Shown here piece after piece: positions 2,690-64,000 of a stretch of DNA of 64,000 nucleotides (position 1 is its first letter; every line of letters begins with the position of its first letter). Under the pieces are notes generated by a model, which ran no database searches, was not told the origin of the DNA, and was given only the letters and a program-made list of their open reading frames with translations. The stretch is from Diploptera punctata (taxonomy: Eukaryota; Arthropoda; Insecta; Blattodea; Blaberidae). The stretch is taken from NCBI GenBank assembly GCA_030220185.1, contig JASPKZ010001233.1:620001-684000 (forward strand), given 5' to 3'. The position numbers were made by a program, and so were the translations under genes.

Positions 2690-2940
2690 ATATAAAACAT
2701 CATAAATAAATTATCATTTTTTTACATTTTACCTCATATTTTATGTTTCTTTAAACACGGGAACTGGTTTTCAAGAGTCATAATGTCGGTTGAAAATGAG
2801 AGAGATGTTTCCTCTTGAAAACTAGTTCCCGTGTTTAAAGAAACATAAAATATGAGGAAAGATGTAAAAAATGACTCATTCATTTACGAATTAAGAACCT
2901 CATAATGTTGTTTCCCATACTTAACTATGAATATAAAACA
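2690..2940 (+). mobile_element. PLE-type palindromic element with 10-bp TSD
   Basis: Insert 2700-2930 is flanked by ATATAAAACA at 2690-2699 and 2931-2940. The arms, about 2716-2778 and 2812-2874, are nearly perfect inverted copies (ACACGGGAACTGGTTTTC against its complement). The right arm is followed by the tail GAACCTCATAATGTTGTTTC. The hairpin occupies one end of the insert and the tail the other. Confidence 0.8.
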
Positions 2941-5604: not shown

Positions 5605-6266
5605 GTTAGTAAACATTACTCAATCACTTGATACTAATAAATGAAATAGTTTAGAGTAAGAAGGAAAAAATTCTGTAGATTGTACTTTTGAAAAAAATTA
5701 ATCATTGTAAAGCTTAAGTTACTTACTTTATAAAAAAACTCTTTTTTGTGAAGTACTACAACCCTCTATGAGAATAAAACATTTTTATTAATGTCTCATT
5801 AATTAATAACAAAGTAATAGGAGAAAATACACCATCATTCATTAAATGTTTATTTCTGCTGATGGCATTGCAATTTGGGATACAAAAGAATCATCAATTG
5901 AGAAAATATTAACAAAATGGAATGATACTTCAAAGAAATTTGGGCTAAAAATGAATGGAGAAAAAAACAGTAGTGTTAAAAATAGCAATACAAATATTAG
6001 AAGAATGTAAAATTAAATTTGGAGGACACTATCTTAAGAATTTGTTAGGAAGCAAAATTAATAAAGAAGCAAAAATCCAAACAGAAATAAGCAGAAGAAT
6101 ATAAAGTTACACCCCAGATGCTAGCATTTAATTAAAAATTTGCTATGGAACAAGGATATACCATTGAATTGTAAAAAGACAATGCATAAAACATACCTTA
6201 AACCTTTATTTCTTTATATGGATTACAATAATGAAATAAATATAATGCAGGGATGGAGATGAAATG

Positions 6267-6565
6267 TTTAAGAAGCCTTGTAATCAAATGGTAAAGAGAA
6301 AAATTTATGCCTGAACCGGGAATCGAACCCCGAACCTTCAGCTTCCGTGCTGATGCTCTAACCATTGAGCTAATCCAGCCTGGATTAGCTCAATGGTTAG
6401 AGCATCAGCACGGAAAGCTGAAGGTTCGGGGTTCGATTCCCGGTTCAGGCATAAATTTTTCTCTTTACCATTTGATTACAATAATTTAGTAGTGTACTTT
6501 AATATACTTATTTCAATCATAGTAACAGCTTTAGCTTCTTAATATTAATTTAATTTAAGAAGCCT
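6267..6565 (+). mobile_element. tRNA-like palindrome element inserted in a LINE, 12-bp TSD
   Basis: TSD TTTAAGAAGCCT lies at 6267-6278 and 6554-6565. Insert 6279-6553 (275 bp) is two inverted arms of about 101 bp (6279-6378 and 6380-6480) with a single 1-base difference, then a one-sided AT-rich tail of about 73 bp. Each arm holds a near-complete tRNA-like sequence: acceptor GCCTGGA/TTCAGGC, D arm GCTC/GAGC, anticodon stem TCAGC/GCTGA, B box GGTTCGATTCC. The anticodon position reads GGA, but U33 is C and the T stem has a G-G mismatch. It could form a cruciform or hairpin. Fewest-assumption reading: a non-autonomous retroelement related in layout to the PLE palindromes. Confidence 0.85.
6381..6452 (+). 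tRNA. tRNA-like sequence in the hairpin (anticodon position GGA, probably not functional)
   Basis: The sequence folds as a cloverleaf with 7-bp acceptor, 4-bp D stem, 5-bp anticodon stem and a TTCGATT T-loop. Defects are C at position 33 and one T-stem mismatch. A mirror copy lies on the other arm. I read it as a tRNA-derived promoter module rather than a working tRNA-Ser, which would need a long variable arm that is absent. Confidence 0.45.
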
Positions 6566-7990: not shown

Positions 7991-8149
7991 AGCAAGAGGT
8001 GGTTCTTCAAGACAATATAACAATGGGTGAAAATAATGAGGATGGAACTGAAGAAGCTTTGGAATTAGTCTAAGAAGAATATGAGGTGAGGTGATAAAAT
8101 TTTACTTAAATAAATAGAGGTTTTCATATTTGAAGAGAAAAATTATACA

Positions 8150-8385
8150 CTCAGGCTGGGGCTTAAACCCAGGACCTTTGGCTTTCTAGGCCAATACTCT
8201 ACTGACTGAGCTACCTGAATAAGTTCCAATCTAAACACAAAATTTTCCTCTTACATATGCTGCTATTTCTCGTGCACCAAATGCTATGAAACCTTTGCTT
8301 CAATCTTGCTTATGATGGCTTCTTTATTAAGAAGACATTTATTTGGGAATTTCACATTACATTATAAAGCCAGTATGGCTTCTTT
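8150..8385 (-). mobile_element. SINE-H, tRNA-derived (copy 2)
   Basis: The tRNA-like head (CTCAGTCAGTAGAGTATTGG and a degenerate B box on the minus strand) and the body GGCTTCTTTATTAAGAAGAC and ACATTACATTATAAAGC match 2300-2535. Confidence 0.6.
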
Positions 8386-8386
8386 C

Positions 8387-8885
8387 CATGTTTTTATTAT
8401 TCATTTCATACATCTCAATGATGAATAAATCATATTTGAAGAGAAAAATTATACTTTAATTTACATTGAGCTGTTTTTGACTCACCTCATACATCTTAAC
8501 TCGAGTTTCTTCACTGCATTTGTGACATTCTGAATGCTGTATCACGTTCACAACTGACGTCCAATGGCCTCCTCTCCTACAGACTATGTTGGATGTCAGT
8601 TGTGAACGTGATACAGCATTGAGAATGTCACAAATGCAGTGAAGAAACTAGAGTCTGTGATGGAGTAAAGAAGTATGAGGTGAGTCAAAAACAACTCAAT
8701 ATAAATTAAAATAAACCTCATAGTGTTATTTCCTACCTACATAAATTATATGCTTAGACTGGGGCTTGAACCCAGGACCTTAAGCCAAAGGTCTTGGGTT
8801 CAAGCCCCAGTCTAAGCGTATAATTTTTCTCTTCAAATATGATTTATTCATCATTGAGATGTATGAAATGAATAATAAAAACATT
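8387..8885 (+). mobile_element. tRNA-like palindrome interrupted by a PLE palindrome
   Basis: Outer arms 8387-8453 plus 8751-8785 and about 8792-8882 are inverted copies (TTATTCATTTCATACATCTC against its complement; tRNA-like GACTGGGGCTTGAACCCAGG against its mirror). The left arm is split by the PLE insertion 8454-8742, so this hairpin is the older of the two. Confidence 0.75.
8446..8750 (+). mobile_element. PLE-type palindrome (family P1) with 8-bp TSD
   Basis: TSD AAATTATA at 8446-8453 and 8743-8750. Insert 8454-8742 has arms of about 110 bp (GAGTTTCTTCACTGCATTTG; GTATCACGTTCACAACTGAC) and the tail AAACCTCATAGTGTTATTTC. A sister copy is at 60654-60893. The uninterrupted mirror arm of the host hairpin (GAAAAATTATACGC) acts as an empty-site reference. 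Confidence 0.85.
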
Positions 8886-9166
8886 GAAGTAGAGGTTATC
8901 TGAAATCCAATATTAAATATTATCCATCGAGATGTATGAAATGAATAAAAAAATCAATTAAATATTAACTCTAGCAACCACCATGTTTGATTCCATGTAA
9001 TGTATACCATATAATTTAATGAACCTTAAATTGCCATTTATCCTATAAGATACATTAGTTTAATTAATTTATTATTTTTAATAAAGTCATGGAAAAATGA
9101 CTAGATAGATATTATTTAAATTGGTTCAAATTATACATCAATATGCAAATAGGTAATAACTTATGG

Positions 9167-13873: not shown

Positions 13874-14142
13874 TAACTACATTTTAATTATATTATTTTT
13901 GGTCTGGACATCTTACCTCAATATTAATGTTGATTTGTTCTTGGACATGTTTCAAAACAATTCTCTGTTTTATCTTCAGCTTTCCCAGACTGAAAGCTGA
14001 AGATAAAACAGAGAATTGTTTTGAAACATGTCCAAGAACAAATCAACATTAATATTGAGGTAAGATGTCCAGACCAAAAATAATATAATTAAAATAACCT
14101 CAAAATATAACTTCCTAAAATTAAATATTAACTACATTTTAA
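13874..14142 (+). mobile_element. PLE-type palindrome with 97-bp perfect arms and 14-bp TSD
   Basis: TSD TAACTACATTTTAA at 13874-13887 and 14129-14142. Arms 13888-13984 and 13992-14088 appear identical in inverse, with a 7-base loop CCAGACT. Complementarity continues 7 bp into the left TSD (13881-13887 with 14089-14095). The tail AACCTCAAAATATAACTTCC is at 14096-14115. Perfect arms suggest recent formation or arm-to-arm correction. Confidence 0.88.
13996..14032 (+). ncRNA. Hammerhead-like core (also mirrored at 13944-13980)
   Basis: CTGAAGA, extra T, stem AAAACA/TGTTTT with a short A-rich loop, GAAA, palindrome ACATGT, then C. Both arms are identical, so a transcript of either strand would carry one sense copy. 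Confidence 0.55.
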
Positions 14143-16240: not shown

Positions 16241-16544
16241 ATCTAAGATAAGAAACTAACTCACTGGCACTATCGAACCCATAGGTTCATGACCATGCAG
16301 ACATAAGTTCTCTATACATCCCTATCCTGAGCTAATGTTTTCCATTCATTCCCTGTATAATCAACTTCCCTCAAATCATGTTTAATGTTATTGTACCATC
16401 TCATTCTTGGCCTGCCTACTGGGCATTTTTCCCTCTGGTTTCTCTACAAGGAGTTTCTATGCCCCTCTTTAATTCCCCATTCATGCCACATGTCCTGCCC
16501 ATCGCAGACTAACTGTTCTTATTAAGATTTAAATTAAATTTCTT

Positions 16545-16830
16545 TATACCTCACCTCCTACCCAGTTTTAATTATACCGGTTTCAAAACCTAGGTGGTTT
16601 CATCTTCAGTAATATCGTGAATGATGTTATATCATTCAGGAGAACTGCTTCTTACTCAATCTAATTTCTCCTGAACAACAAAACATCGGTCGAGATATCA
16701 CTGAAGATGAAATCACTAGGTTTGAAACTGATATAATTATAAGACTGGATAAGAGGTGAGGTATAAAGAAATTTAATTTCAATCTTAAATTAAACCTCAT
16801 AGTGATTTTTCCTATAAAAGTTCAATGTTG
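16545..16830 (+). mobile_element. PLE-type palindrome within LINE-E
   Basis: Left arm about 16548-16650, right arm about 16680-16770 (TTTATACCTCACCTCCTACC and mirror), tail AAACCTCATAGTGATTTTTC at 16793-16812 followed by CTATAAAAGTTCAAT. Both arms have CTGAAGATGAAA with a stem against GGTTT, then GAAAC; the left arm keeps the palindrome ACCGGT. No clean TSD because flanking LINE sequence is damaged. Confidence 0.75.
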
Positions 16831-19164: not shown

Positions 19165-19605
19165 CTTAATTTATGAAAGAAAAATTAACGCTTGGGCCGG
19201 GATTTCAATCCTGGACCTCTCCGTACGACTGTGCTGTCCATTTATACTTGAATTGTATAAGTTAAAAGAAATGTTAATGTTTGTATCATTAATGAATTAG
19301 TTGGAGAAAATGCTTTAACATCTCATCTCATAAAGTTGAGTGTCTTCACAATACCGGTTTCAAAAGTATAGTATTACTTCCATCTTAAGTCAAATTCCAA
19401 GATGTTAAAAGTATTTTCTCCAACTCATTCATTAATGTAAATACCTCATAGTGTTTCCTCCCACTGTAATTTTAATTAAGTTTGTATCATTTAAATAGTG
19501 TAATGGACATCACACTCGTACGGAGAACAAGAGGTCCAGGTTTCAAATTTTGATTCAAGAATTAACTTTCCTTTCTTAAATTAAATCCTATAAAAGTTCA
19601 ATACA
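19165..19605 (+). mobile_element. tRNA-like palindrome with PLE-like tail, interrupted by a PLE palindrome
   Basis: Left arm 19168-19235 (GAAAAATTAACGCTTGGGCC; GTCCATTTA) mirrors about 19500-19575 (TAATGGACATCACAC; CGTACGGAGAACAAGAGGTC). Downstream, 19578-19604 reads TAAATTAAATCCTATAAAAG then TTCAATAC, close to the tail end at 16785-16830. Suggests the tRNA-like hairpins use a PLE-type end. Confidence 0.65.
19279..19491 (+). mobile_element. PLE-type palindrome with 12-bp TSD
   Basis: TSD GTTTGTATCATT at 19279-19290 and 19480-19491. Insert 19291-19479. Outer arms TAGTTGGAGAAAATGCTTT and mirror; tail ATACCTCATAGTGTTTCCTC. A degenerate hammerhead core (CTTAAGA, GAAACCGGT) is on the minus strand. 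Arm complementarity runs 4 bp into the TSD. Confidence 0.8.
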
Positions 19606-62189: not shown

Positions 62190-63910
62190 CAAAACCATAA
62201 GAGTACAATTGTGCAGGCTATTTTGGGGTATTTTTAAAGTTGCCGCATACATTTTTTTTTCAGACTCTACTGTAGGTGCAGTAAGGTTCTCCTTCAAGAA
62301 CATTGACAACAAATTTATTGCAAGAACATACCAGTACATTATAGACTATACAGAAATGTGCTTGTGATTTAGAAAAAAAACAAATTAATTATGTTAAATT
62401 GTGTTACATAAATTTGAATTTATCGTTACATCTATCTTGTTGAGAACTTTCTACACCTTTTATACTTGTTTAATATGTGCAAAAAAATCTTAGTAAGAAG
62501 TGATGGTAATTACTTAGAGAACCTAACTGTTCAGACAACTGAGCCTTTTATCAAAAATAATTTGACCTGACCTTTGACTATTCAGTGATTTCTTGGTAAT
62601 AATGTGAAGATAGGCATTGATGTTAGAATTAAAAAATGTTTAAGACTAAAAAAATTCAAACTATTTGCTTTCTTGTCACATGTTGGGACAATTGGTTGAT
62701 AGGCCAATGGCGTTCTCAGTCAAAAATATACATTGGATTTCTTCTATAATGAACTGTTAGATTTCCTAAGTAAAAATTAACTAAATATGCAAATAGACTA
62801 TAATGTTACATAAAAAATAATTATGTATACTGTAGAATTATTGAATCTTGAACTATGTATGTGACTTCAGTGTGTACAGTAATTTCATTGAGAAAATTCT
62901 ATTCCTCTTGAATAATGTACTTCCTACAGTGACCATAAAATGTATAAAATTTTTGTTTTTGTGAAATATTAATATTAATTCAAAAGAATAAATGAATTAG
63001 TGTCATTATAAAATCAAATTAGTGTTATTTCGTTTTCAAAAACAAACTAATCGTGACAAGTCTGGTTAAGAGTTAATGTGCGCACATTCACATATAAAAT
63101 ATGATAAAAACCGTTCAGATTAGAGAAATGATGCATAAGTTTCAGTTAGGATTTTTTTTTGCTACTTTCTTCTAAACTTAAGGTATTTTTAAATTAAGTT
63201 ATTTTTAAAGGTTCATTGTCTATAATTGTATGTTTTTTATTGTGCCAATAATTCTCACTTTGTACTTAAATTACTTTGTTTTCTTAAAACACAAAACAGC
63301 ATATTGCTACTCATTACACCAGGCTCGTCCAATGTTACTGCCATAGCATATGCATTATCCAGATCCTGTTCGATACTTCCTATTAGAAATGACACAAGAA
63401 ATGTTACTTTGTAAAACAATTTTGCATTTTTAATTATTTCTTTTGAAAAAGAATTACAAAAAAATTGCCAATATTTTTCTTGTATAACTTTTTCAATAAC
63501 TTCCTAATAAATAGTGATCTACTTTATCTACTATGTTCATCTACTTTTTTAATAAATGCTTATGAAATTATGTAAATTATTTTGATCAACTTTCTTAATG
63601 AATTCTGAAAGATAGAAGAAAAAAAACTGAAAATAATTTATAGTTAAAGATATCTGAAAAGTTGGCAAATTCCTTGTAATTTTTTTCTGAAAAGAGTAAG
63701 AATAAAAACATGCGAAAGTTGTTTACAAAGTAGCATTGCTTGTGTTGAGCTTTCAATTTTATTTTTAATTGGGTGGGAATTTATAGAGTGCTTTCCATGC
63801 GACTGATCCACCGTGCCCGAGCGAGACCTTTTCGAAATTAATAATAATGTATAGCGCACAATGTGCAAAGATTAGTTAATCTATATTATTAAAATTCATC
63901 GGAGAACATA
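62190..63910. other. No gene recognised
   Basis: AT-rich; no repeat family or coding exon recognised on either strand. Confidence 0.45.
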
Positions 63911-63914
63911 TTGT

Positions 63915-63985
63915 TTAAACAACTCACCTCATAGGATTCATGCATTATACCTCATAATGTTTACTTCCCAACATTAATTAAATAT
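63915..63985 (+). mobile_element. Minimal PLE terminus
   Basis: CAACTCACCTCATAGGATTC, then ATACCTCATAATGTTTACTTCC, the shared tail, within 60 bp. The short inverted piece between the two CCTCATA blocks resembles the 22138 mini-element. Confidence 0.55.
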
Positions 63986-64000
63986 AATCTATAATATATT

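Follow-up and report, generated by a model that had tools for sequence, protein, structure and literature searches.

A tRNA-headed short retroelement of Diploptera punctata whose head-to-head inserts resemble those of Penelope-like elements

Structure of the palindromic insert and its repeat family

The window (the whole stretch of 64,000 nucleotides analysed here) carries a palindromic insert of 275 bp at 6279-6553, flanked on both sides by exact direct repeats, hereafter target-site duplications (TSDs), and located among several Penelope-like elements (PLEs) and a related repeat (Table 1). Apart from a single additional A on the right side, the two ~101-bp arms are exact inverted copies of each other, and inverted-repeat analysis resolves them into two segments, 6278-6344/6415-6481 (67 nt, 100%) and 6343-6378/6380-6415 (36 nt, 100%, spacer of 1 nt). 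These coordinates confirm the insert limits, the arm length and the one-base difference described in the first-pass annotation, and its claims of a tRNA-like sequence in each arm and of a one-sided tail with a 12-bp TSD agree well with the Rfam scores and the coordinates in Table 1. The sequences TAGCTCAATGG and GGTTCGATTCC of the unit fit the A box and B box, respectively, of what we take to be the consensus of these promoter elements. When the insert and one TSD are removed, the rejoined flanks form the open stretch NKYNAGMEMKCLRSLLEKKLERQNSEHSNKKNMSLDRVQDEIEDSRIKWY, which is broken by the insert, and thus the interrupted frame is restored as predicted; by eye, we take this stretch to resemble the end of a LINE reverse-transcriptase protein.

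Table 1. Position of the palindromic insert, its parts and the related inserts within the window
Feature	Position	Strand	Remarks
PLE copy	337-804	frame at ~422, minus	225-nt inverted repeat (95%) around GIY-YIG frame
P2 head-to-head pair	2702-2933		short/tail ends; 10-bp TSD
Left TSD TTTAAGAAGCCT	6267-6278	no strand	exact 12-bp direct repeat
Left arm	6279-6378	-	unit ~103-104 down to 3; one tRNA-like head inside
tRNA-like head, left arm	6308-6379	-	Rfam tRNA, 41.8 bits (gathering score 29)
Right arm	6378-6553	+	unit 1 to ~177; second tRNA-like head inside
tRNA-like head, right arm	6379-6450	+	Rfam tRNA, 46.4 bits (gathering score 29)
TTTTT run	6456-6460	+	unit 79-83; directly after tRNA
One-sided tail	6482-6553	+	~72 bp, unit ~105-177; compare PLE 'tail' (PMC11167929)
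Right TSD TTTAAGAAGCCT	6554-6565	no strand	exact 12-bp direct repeat
Family B insert	8124-8888	no strand	outer ends at unit ~97 and ~143; same plan
P3 head-to-head insert	13881-14130		short and tail end; TSD TAACTACATTTTAA, 14/14; 104-nt arms, 100%
P1 head-to-head pair	16522-16826		short/tail ends; TSD of at least 9 bp not found
P4 head-to-head pair	63885-63986		short/tail ends; 13-bp TSD, 1 mismatch

The promoters of the two tRNA heads face outward, and therefore no pol III transcript through both arms is predicted. The layout had been proposed as 'divergent-to-convergent': the promoters are indeed divergent, but neither convergent transcription through both arms nor a transcript folding into one long hairpin is to be expected from this arrangement. 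Judging from its sequence, the TTTTT run could be a weak pol III terminator. Rfam microRNA matches on the palindromes all scored below their gathering thresholds and are attributed to the perfect hairpin shape, and a 12-nt repeat, GATTACAATAAT, at 6221 and 6474 was put down to chance by estimate.

The genome-wide arm search suggested in the first-pass annotation was performed with a 58-nt arm pattern, allowing up to 3 mismatches, over 3.12 Gb in 10,165 contigs. A total of 6,516 matches (3,345 plus 3,171) were found for this element, family A, while the same pattern read backwards gave 0 matches genome-wide, so that chance is excluded. The unit of family A is 325 bp, with the tRNA head at 1-73, the T5 run at 79-83 and an AT-rich body, and each arm of an insert carries 0-4 extra whole units (four in one arm at L041). 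For the analysis of individual inserts 81 loci were sampled, with exclusion of nine (seven overlaps, one haplotig and one overlapping the window); the family A loci are a non-random sample, being mostly exact matches to the 58-nt pattern, first among the matches listed, and mostly from those up to contig C762. One insert occurs at both L027 (contig C21) and L067 (contig C631), one locus being the reverse complement of the other; the pair was regarded as haplotigs and entered only once in the counts. The assembly thus seems to hold haplotigs, and copy counts are maybe inflated. An assembly artefact is unlikely as the source of the palindromes, because the inserts have TSDs and the L027/L067 insert has the same structure on two contigs.

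Family A shares with tRNA-derived SINEs a tRNA-like head with matches to the A and B boxes, a short unit, a high dispersed copy number and TSDs. On the other hand, no poly(A) or simple-repeat tail is present in the family A ends examined, and no LINE-like 3' end was noticed on inspection of them. The unit is too short for a reverse transcriptase (RT) plus GIY-YIG endonuclease; family A itself is not an autonomous PLE. No ribozyme was detected in the unit up to E = 5, neither the hammerhead of retrozymes nor that of PLEs, by a scan of low sensitivity, since a similar one at E 0.05 missed the hammerhead-like core of PLE copies.

Geometry of the inserts, target sites and template

After mapping of the units (clusters of at least 150 bp kept, 10 shorter ones dropped, and matches below 86% identity ignored), a total of 65 family A inserts were classified into 50 head-to-head, 0 tail-to-tail, 14 single-direction and 1 complex. 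The outer ends of the head-to-head inserts lie at unit positions ~105 and ~181 in 44 of 50, with another end in the remaining 6, and the same outer end was never used twice (0/50). If each end were chosen independently at 0.5, the absence of same-end pairs among the 44 would have P = 5.7e-14. A TSD of at least 8 bp was identified for 42 of these 44 inserts (those of 8-9 bp possibly by chance), of at least 10 bp for 37, and of 12-13 bp for 24. One-sided tails together with inverted and tandem copies, as in these inserts, are characters of PLEs.

The position of inversion differs among inserts, and at the junctions some of the unit is missing or present twice. In view of this variation and of the 0-4 extra units, the simplest assumption is that a new palindrome forms with every insertion. 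The head-to-head layout recurs in the majority of sampled inserts, and hence the view that other copies would show only single tRNA-like units, with the palindrome as a one-off rearrangement, was rejected. The proposal of a SINE with two head-to-head tRNA units as its fixed form was also rejected, because the 325-bp unit contains a single tRNA head and the inversion point varies. The 105 and 181 ends would instead be the start sites of reverse transcription; the left arm of the window insert is then read as cDNA begun at the 105 site, the right arm as cDNA begun at the 181 site, and the tail as the stretch separating the two presumed RT start sites. The window copy would then be the simplest form: both cDNAs would have stopped close to the 5' start of the tRNA, which gives the near-perfect palindrome.

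This geometry bears on two other origins of an inverted insert. One is a snap-back, in which the enzyme turns around on the single cDNA that it has made and uses it as template; self-priming on an antisense template has been proposed for inverted PLE repeats (PMC3846280). The near-perfect palindrome of the window, centred on the tRNA 5' end, and the exclusive head-to-head orientation of the pairs agree with such a process, but the second end is fixed ~76 bp short of the first in 44/50 pairs, and the junctions skip or repeat unit parts. Moreover, the arm with the 105 end can outrun the other, as at L012 (695 versus 434), which already disfavours the snap-back, and we consider it very improbable. 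The other is transposase-driven movement of a DNA element bordered by terminal inverted repeats, either a fold-back transposon or a MITE. Long inverted repeats plus TSDs are what such an element would leave, but the inserts have neither identical terminal repeats nor a fixed TSD length: the two ends differ (105 versus 181), their positions vary by several bases, the TSD varies in length and the inner structure varies by whole 325-bp units. These features already contradict this origin, to which we give practically no weight.

The target site was analysed for 37 family A inserts with a TSD of at least 10 bp, oriented with the 181 end rightward. The left flank ends with A-A-A-C (21, 26, 22 and 16 of 37, respectively) and the right flank starts with G/A-T-T-T (26, 27, 26 and 17 of 37), and all 37 TSDs begin with A or T; the bases beside the TSD edges are partly shaped by TSD delimitation. 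The site is roughly symmetric, as if each strand were cut at the same motif. At L029 and L037 two structurally different family A inserts occupy the same target within a PLE terminus of type P2 (see below), their TSDs reading TATGAGGTAAGAT at one locus and the reverse complement of it at the other; family A may favour PLE ends as targets.

For insight into the template, sequence variants were compared between units. Variants were common to units within one insert in 177 of 669 comparisons (63 inserts; 65 of the 177 from L049:1646, the first L049 insert, alone), to units of different inserts in 345 of 15,882, and across the two arms of an insert in 69 of 358, these comparisons being not independent of one another. 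Within-insert variants are thus mostly unshared (492/669), and the two arms seem to derive from one template or from close relatives. Either a multi-unit transcript or a circle would explain the shared variants. In an earlier set of 42 head-to-head inserts, inner cDNA ends were enriched at unit 1-3 (12/84 versus 0.8 expected if uniform, P 2e-11) and at unit 66-78 (12/84 versus 3.4 expected if uniform). The pile-up at unit 1-3 points to an RNA 5' end at the tRNA start, and hence to templates that are linear at least in part. A few inner ends, from several inserts, lie at unit 57-61 (4/84 versus 1.3 expected), which presumably adjoins the base equivalent to tRNA A58, where, speculatively, a methyl mark would stop the reverse transcriptase.

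A retrozyme-like template, in the form of an RNA circle containing a single 325-nt unit and used by an enzyme of any source, is tentatively conceivable on these data and compatible with mobilisation by PLEs. Contiguous 325-bp units in single inserts, the variants common to units of an insert and the expression of animal retrozymes as circles (PMC7229834) are in line with a circle, whereas the ribozyme was not found by the weak scan, the cDNA ends at unit 1-3 suggest that templates may be partly linear, and these observations can also be accounted for by a read-through transcript of several units.

A related but more diverged repeat, family B, has a unit of 302 bp and gave 1,242 matches to a 47-nt pattern. 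Its 34 inserts (two pieces in the window counted as one) include 15 inverted and 19 single-direction. The ends lie at ~95-102 and ~135-154, ~42 bp apart like PLE tails, in 9 of the 15 inverted inserts (L009, L011, L045:182, L068, L073 twice, L074, L078 and the window); one (L063:1292) has two short ends, and five (L010, L014, L038, L045:969 and L051) have another or an unreadable end. The window copy is read as one family B insert broken by a nested hairpin element at ~8452-8742. Family A thus shares the head-to-head plan with family B, which follows it less regularly. For either family, the predicted fold has the sequence preceding the tRNA paired over ~30 bp with the tRNA 3' half plus trailer. 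The fold energy is -61.7 kcal/mol for A against a mean of -39.8 after shuffling of the upstream stretch (lowest of 300, -48.7), and -38.0 for B against a mean of -27.3 (lowest -38.5, so that at least one shuffle reached the value of B). This modelled pairing may be the relic of an old inverted junction or may be of use to the RNA. A further tRNA-like family with the trailer TTAATTTTTCTTTCTTAAATTAG forms a palindrome at L077:1093-1177, and 19166-19220 of the window looks related to it.

Penelope-like elements of the same genome

Frames for GIY-YIG were identified by regular-expression scan at 14 places in 326 kb of loci plus the window, overlapping loci included. In the genome search, 45,022 first-look candidates were obtained, of which 150 were scored, with 150 matches listed above the cut-off. 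One open reading frame, L079:907-2517, carries both RVT_1 and GIY-YIG; its protein has 919 relatives at E <= 1e-20 among 7,988 scored candidates, and its organism-named relatives are all arthropod among the 120 matches listed. PLEs are abundant in this genome. Downstream of the GIY-YIG frames there are a hammerhead-like core, recognised by eye, and terminal sequences that were sorted into four types, P1-P4.

A total of 35 head-to-head pairs of P1-P4 were classified into 23 with one short and one tail end (4 of them in the window), 3 short/short, 0 tail/tail and 9 with another end. A TSD of at least 9 bp is present in 21 of 35 pairs, of which 14 are 12-15 bp, and 14/35 are without. As in family A, the left flank of PLE inserts prefers AAAC (A 9, A 12, A 13 and C 9 of 20 inserts with both flanks complete), with a weaker right-flank motif (T 8 and T 10 of 20). 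For all four types (L035, L047, L038, L063, L040 and L079), structure prediction gives a TGAGGT/ACCTCA stem surrounding the short end, and the pair beside it is A-U in P2 and P4 but a compensating U-A in P3; this modelled stem is a candidate RNA element for positioning reverse transcription. Positions 1-64000 of the window contain 60 inverted-repeat pairs of at least 22 nt within 400 bp, several of which are PLE inserts of the same geometry.

The terminal sequences were also compared directly. The 181 end of family A resembles the tail end of P4 over 26 columns (22 identical, 3 mismatches, 1 gap; 1/1000 block shuffles as good), and the 181-like end of family B resembles the short end of P1 (2/1000 rough block shuffles as good); these matches are short and come from 32 end comparisons, and are thus taken as supporting evidence only. 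No PLE end matched the 105 end of family A or its B counterpart at the reporting threshold. Tail length is ~76 for A, ~42 for B and ~38-46 for the PLEs here. Against the involvement of PLEs stand this longer tail of A, the unmatched 105-like ends, the lack of a ribozyme hit in unit A, the weaker right-flank motif of the PLEs and their pairs without a TSD, the single-direction inserts (14/65 for A and 19/34 for B) and the misfit pairs of family B and of the PLEs.

Proposed integration and comparison with known systems

The head-to-head majority in family A and the same anatomy in PLEs suggest that this short element rides on the enzymes of Penelope, and not on those of LINEs as is usual. The palindrome is, with good probability, one young insert of a 325-bp tRNA-headed short retroelement that is mobilised in trans by PLEs. 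We are inclined, with less assurance, to the wider proposal of a class of tRNA-promoter SINEs parasitic on PLEs instead of LINEs, for which paired initiation is normal, the two RNA start sites being used once each, one per cleaved strand.

From the anatomy and ends of the inserts, their TSDs and flank preference, and the abundant PLEs of like build, we infer the enzyme, the RNA form and the order of steps as follows. An RNA reading past the T5 run, multi-unit or circular, would be bound by the PLE protein. Its GIY-YIG domain would make a staggered cut at an AT-rich site, about AAAC^AA(N)8TT^GTTT, so that the two 3' ends lie 12-13 nt from each other. Reverse transcription would begin from one of them at about RNA site 105 and from the other at about 181, and each cDNA would be extended over a variable distance in the direction of the RNA 5' end, in some cases through several units. 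Joining of the cDNA ends would then give the head-to-head product, which has a short end on one side, a tail end on the other and a TSD.

For the PAc PLE in vitro, reverse transcription from two adjacent internal RNA sites, cutting and extension of both DNA strands and an ATT cut preference have been described (PMC11167929), and its genomic tail is the stretch between the two start sites (PMC11167929). For PAc, however, the two strands were not seen to differ in their start site, so that the pairing of sites is not itself demonstrated, and the later integration steps of PLEs are stated there as yet to be validated experimentally (PMC11167929). In a rotifer, the pLTRs of PLE copies are inverted, and one of them may carry a tail (PMC3846280). 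The layout, for which the first-pass annotation knew of no standard SINE class, fits these Penelope-like elements, a match overlooked there (PMC3846280, PMC11167929). In the open-licence literature, as covered by titles, abstract openings and passages, no SINE mobilised by PLEs was found, a scope that does not establish absence overall; the nearest remark there is on short nonautonomous Penelope elements in butterflies (PMC6685494).

In the best reading, a tRNA-headed element that integrates in the Penelope manner takes the place of the two-headed SINE of the first-pass annotation. The prevailing view is that SINEs parasitise LINEs. If the use of PLE enzymes is true, pol III-driven elements would have a wider range of partners than known so far, the inserts of such a SINE would record the integration mechanism of PLEs, and many of the long palindromes in the window would be integration products of one machinery. 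The many young inserts, each with one end of either kind, give a testable model of two staggered cuts, one start per strand and cDNA joining.

The same inserts might be ascribed to a SINE mobilised by LINEs with frequent twin priming, in which the LINE enzyme would prime one cDNA at the 3' end of the RNA and a second at an internal site, a mechanism put forward for the 5' inversions of L1. The overall geometry, with two opposite cDNAs joined per insert, is the same, and LINE-like motif matches are present in the scanned loci. To our knowledge, L1 inversions have no fixed internal start, unlike family A, in which both ends are fixed. The TSDs of 12-13 bp are also LINE-like (human median 13 bp; PMC12016303). 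In the human germline, however, 5' inversion is reported for a minority of 18.4% of L1 and almost none of Alu (0.02%, 1/5,936; PMC12016303), against the 50/65 sampled family A inserts with their two fixed ends. Since, in addition, PLEs of the same genome show the same short/tail pattern, we regard twin priming on LINE enzymes as unlikely.

Among other known systems, the dimeric SINE Sbg9 of Blattella germanica has two SINE parts per element like family A, but joins two different SINEs, and the passages that describe it mention no palindromic structure (PMC9191728). Metazoan retrozymes are likewise short non-autonomous retroelements of similar unit length with tandem copies (PMC7229834); theirs carry hammerhead ribozymes whereas none was found in family A, and the word 'inverted' is absent from the main text of the retrozyme paper (PMC7229834). 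The tRNA-derived SINEs share with family A the tRNA head with A- and B-box matches, the short length, thousands of dispersed copies and TSDs, while the sampled family A inserts are distinguished by being mostly head-to-head with two fixed ends. In comparison with the Penelope/Poseidon PLEs, family A has a tRNA head in place of the pLTR with hammerhead, a length of 325 bp without room for RT plus endonuclease, and a longer tail, but it agrees with them in the head-to-head and tandem copies, the one-sided tail between two internal RT starts (presumed ones in family A), the short TSDs and the AT-rich target (PMC11167929, PMC3846280).
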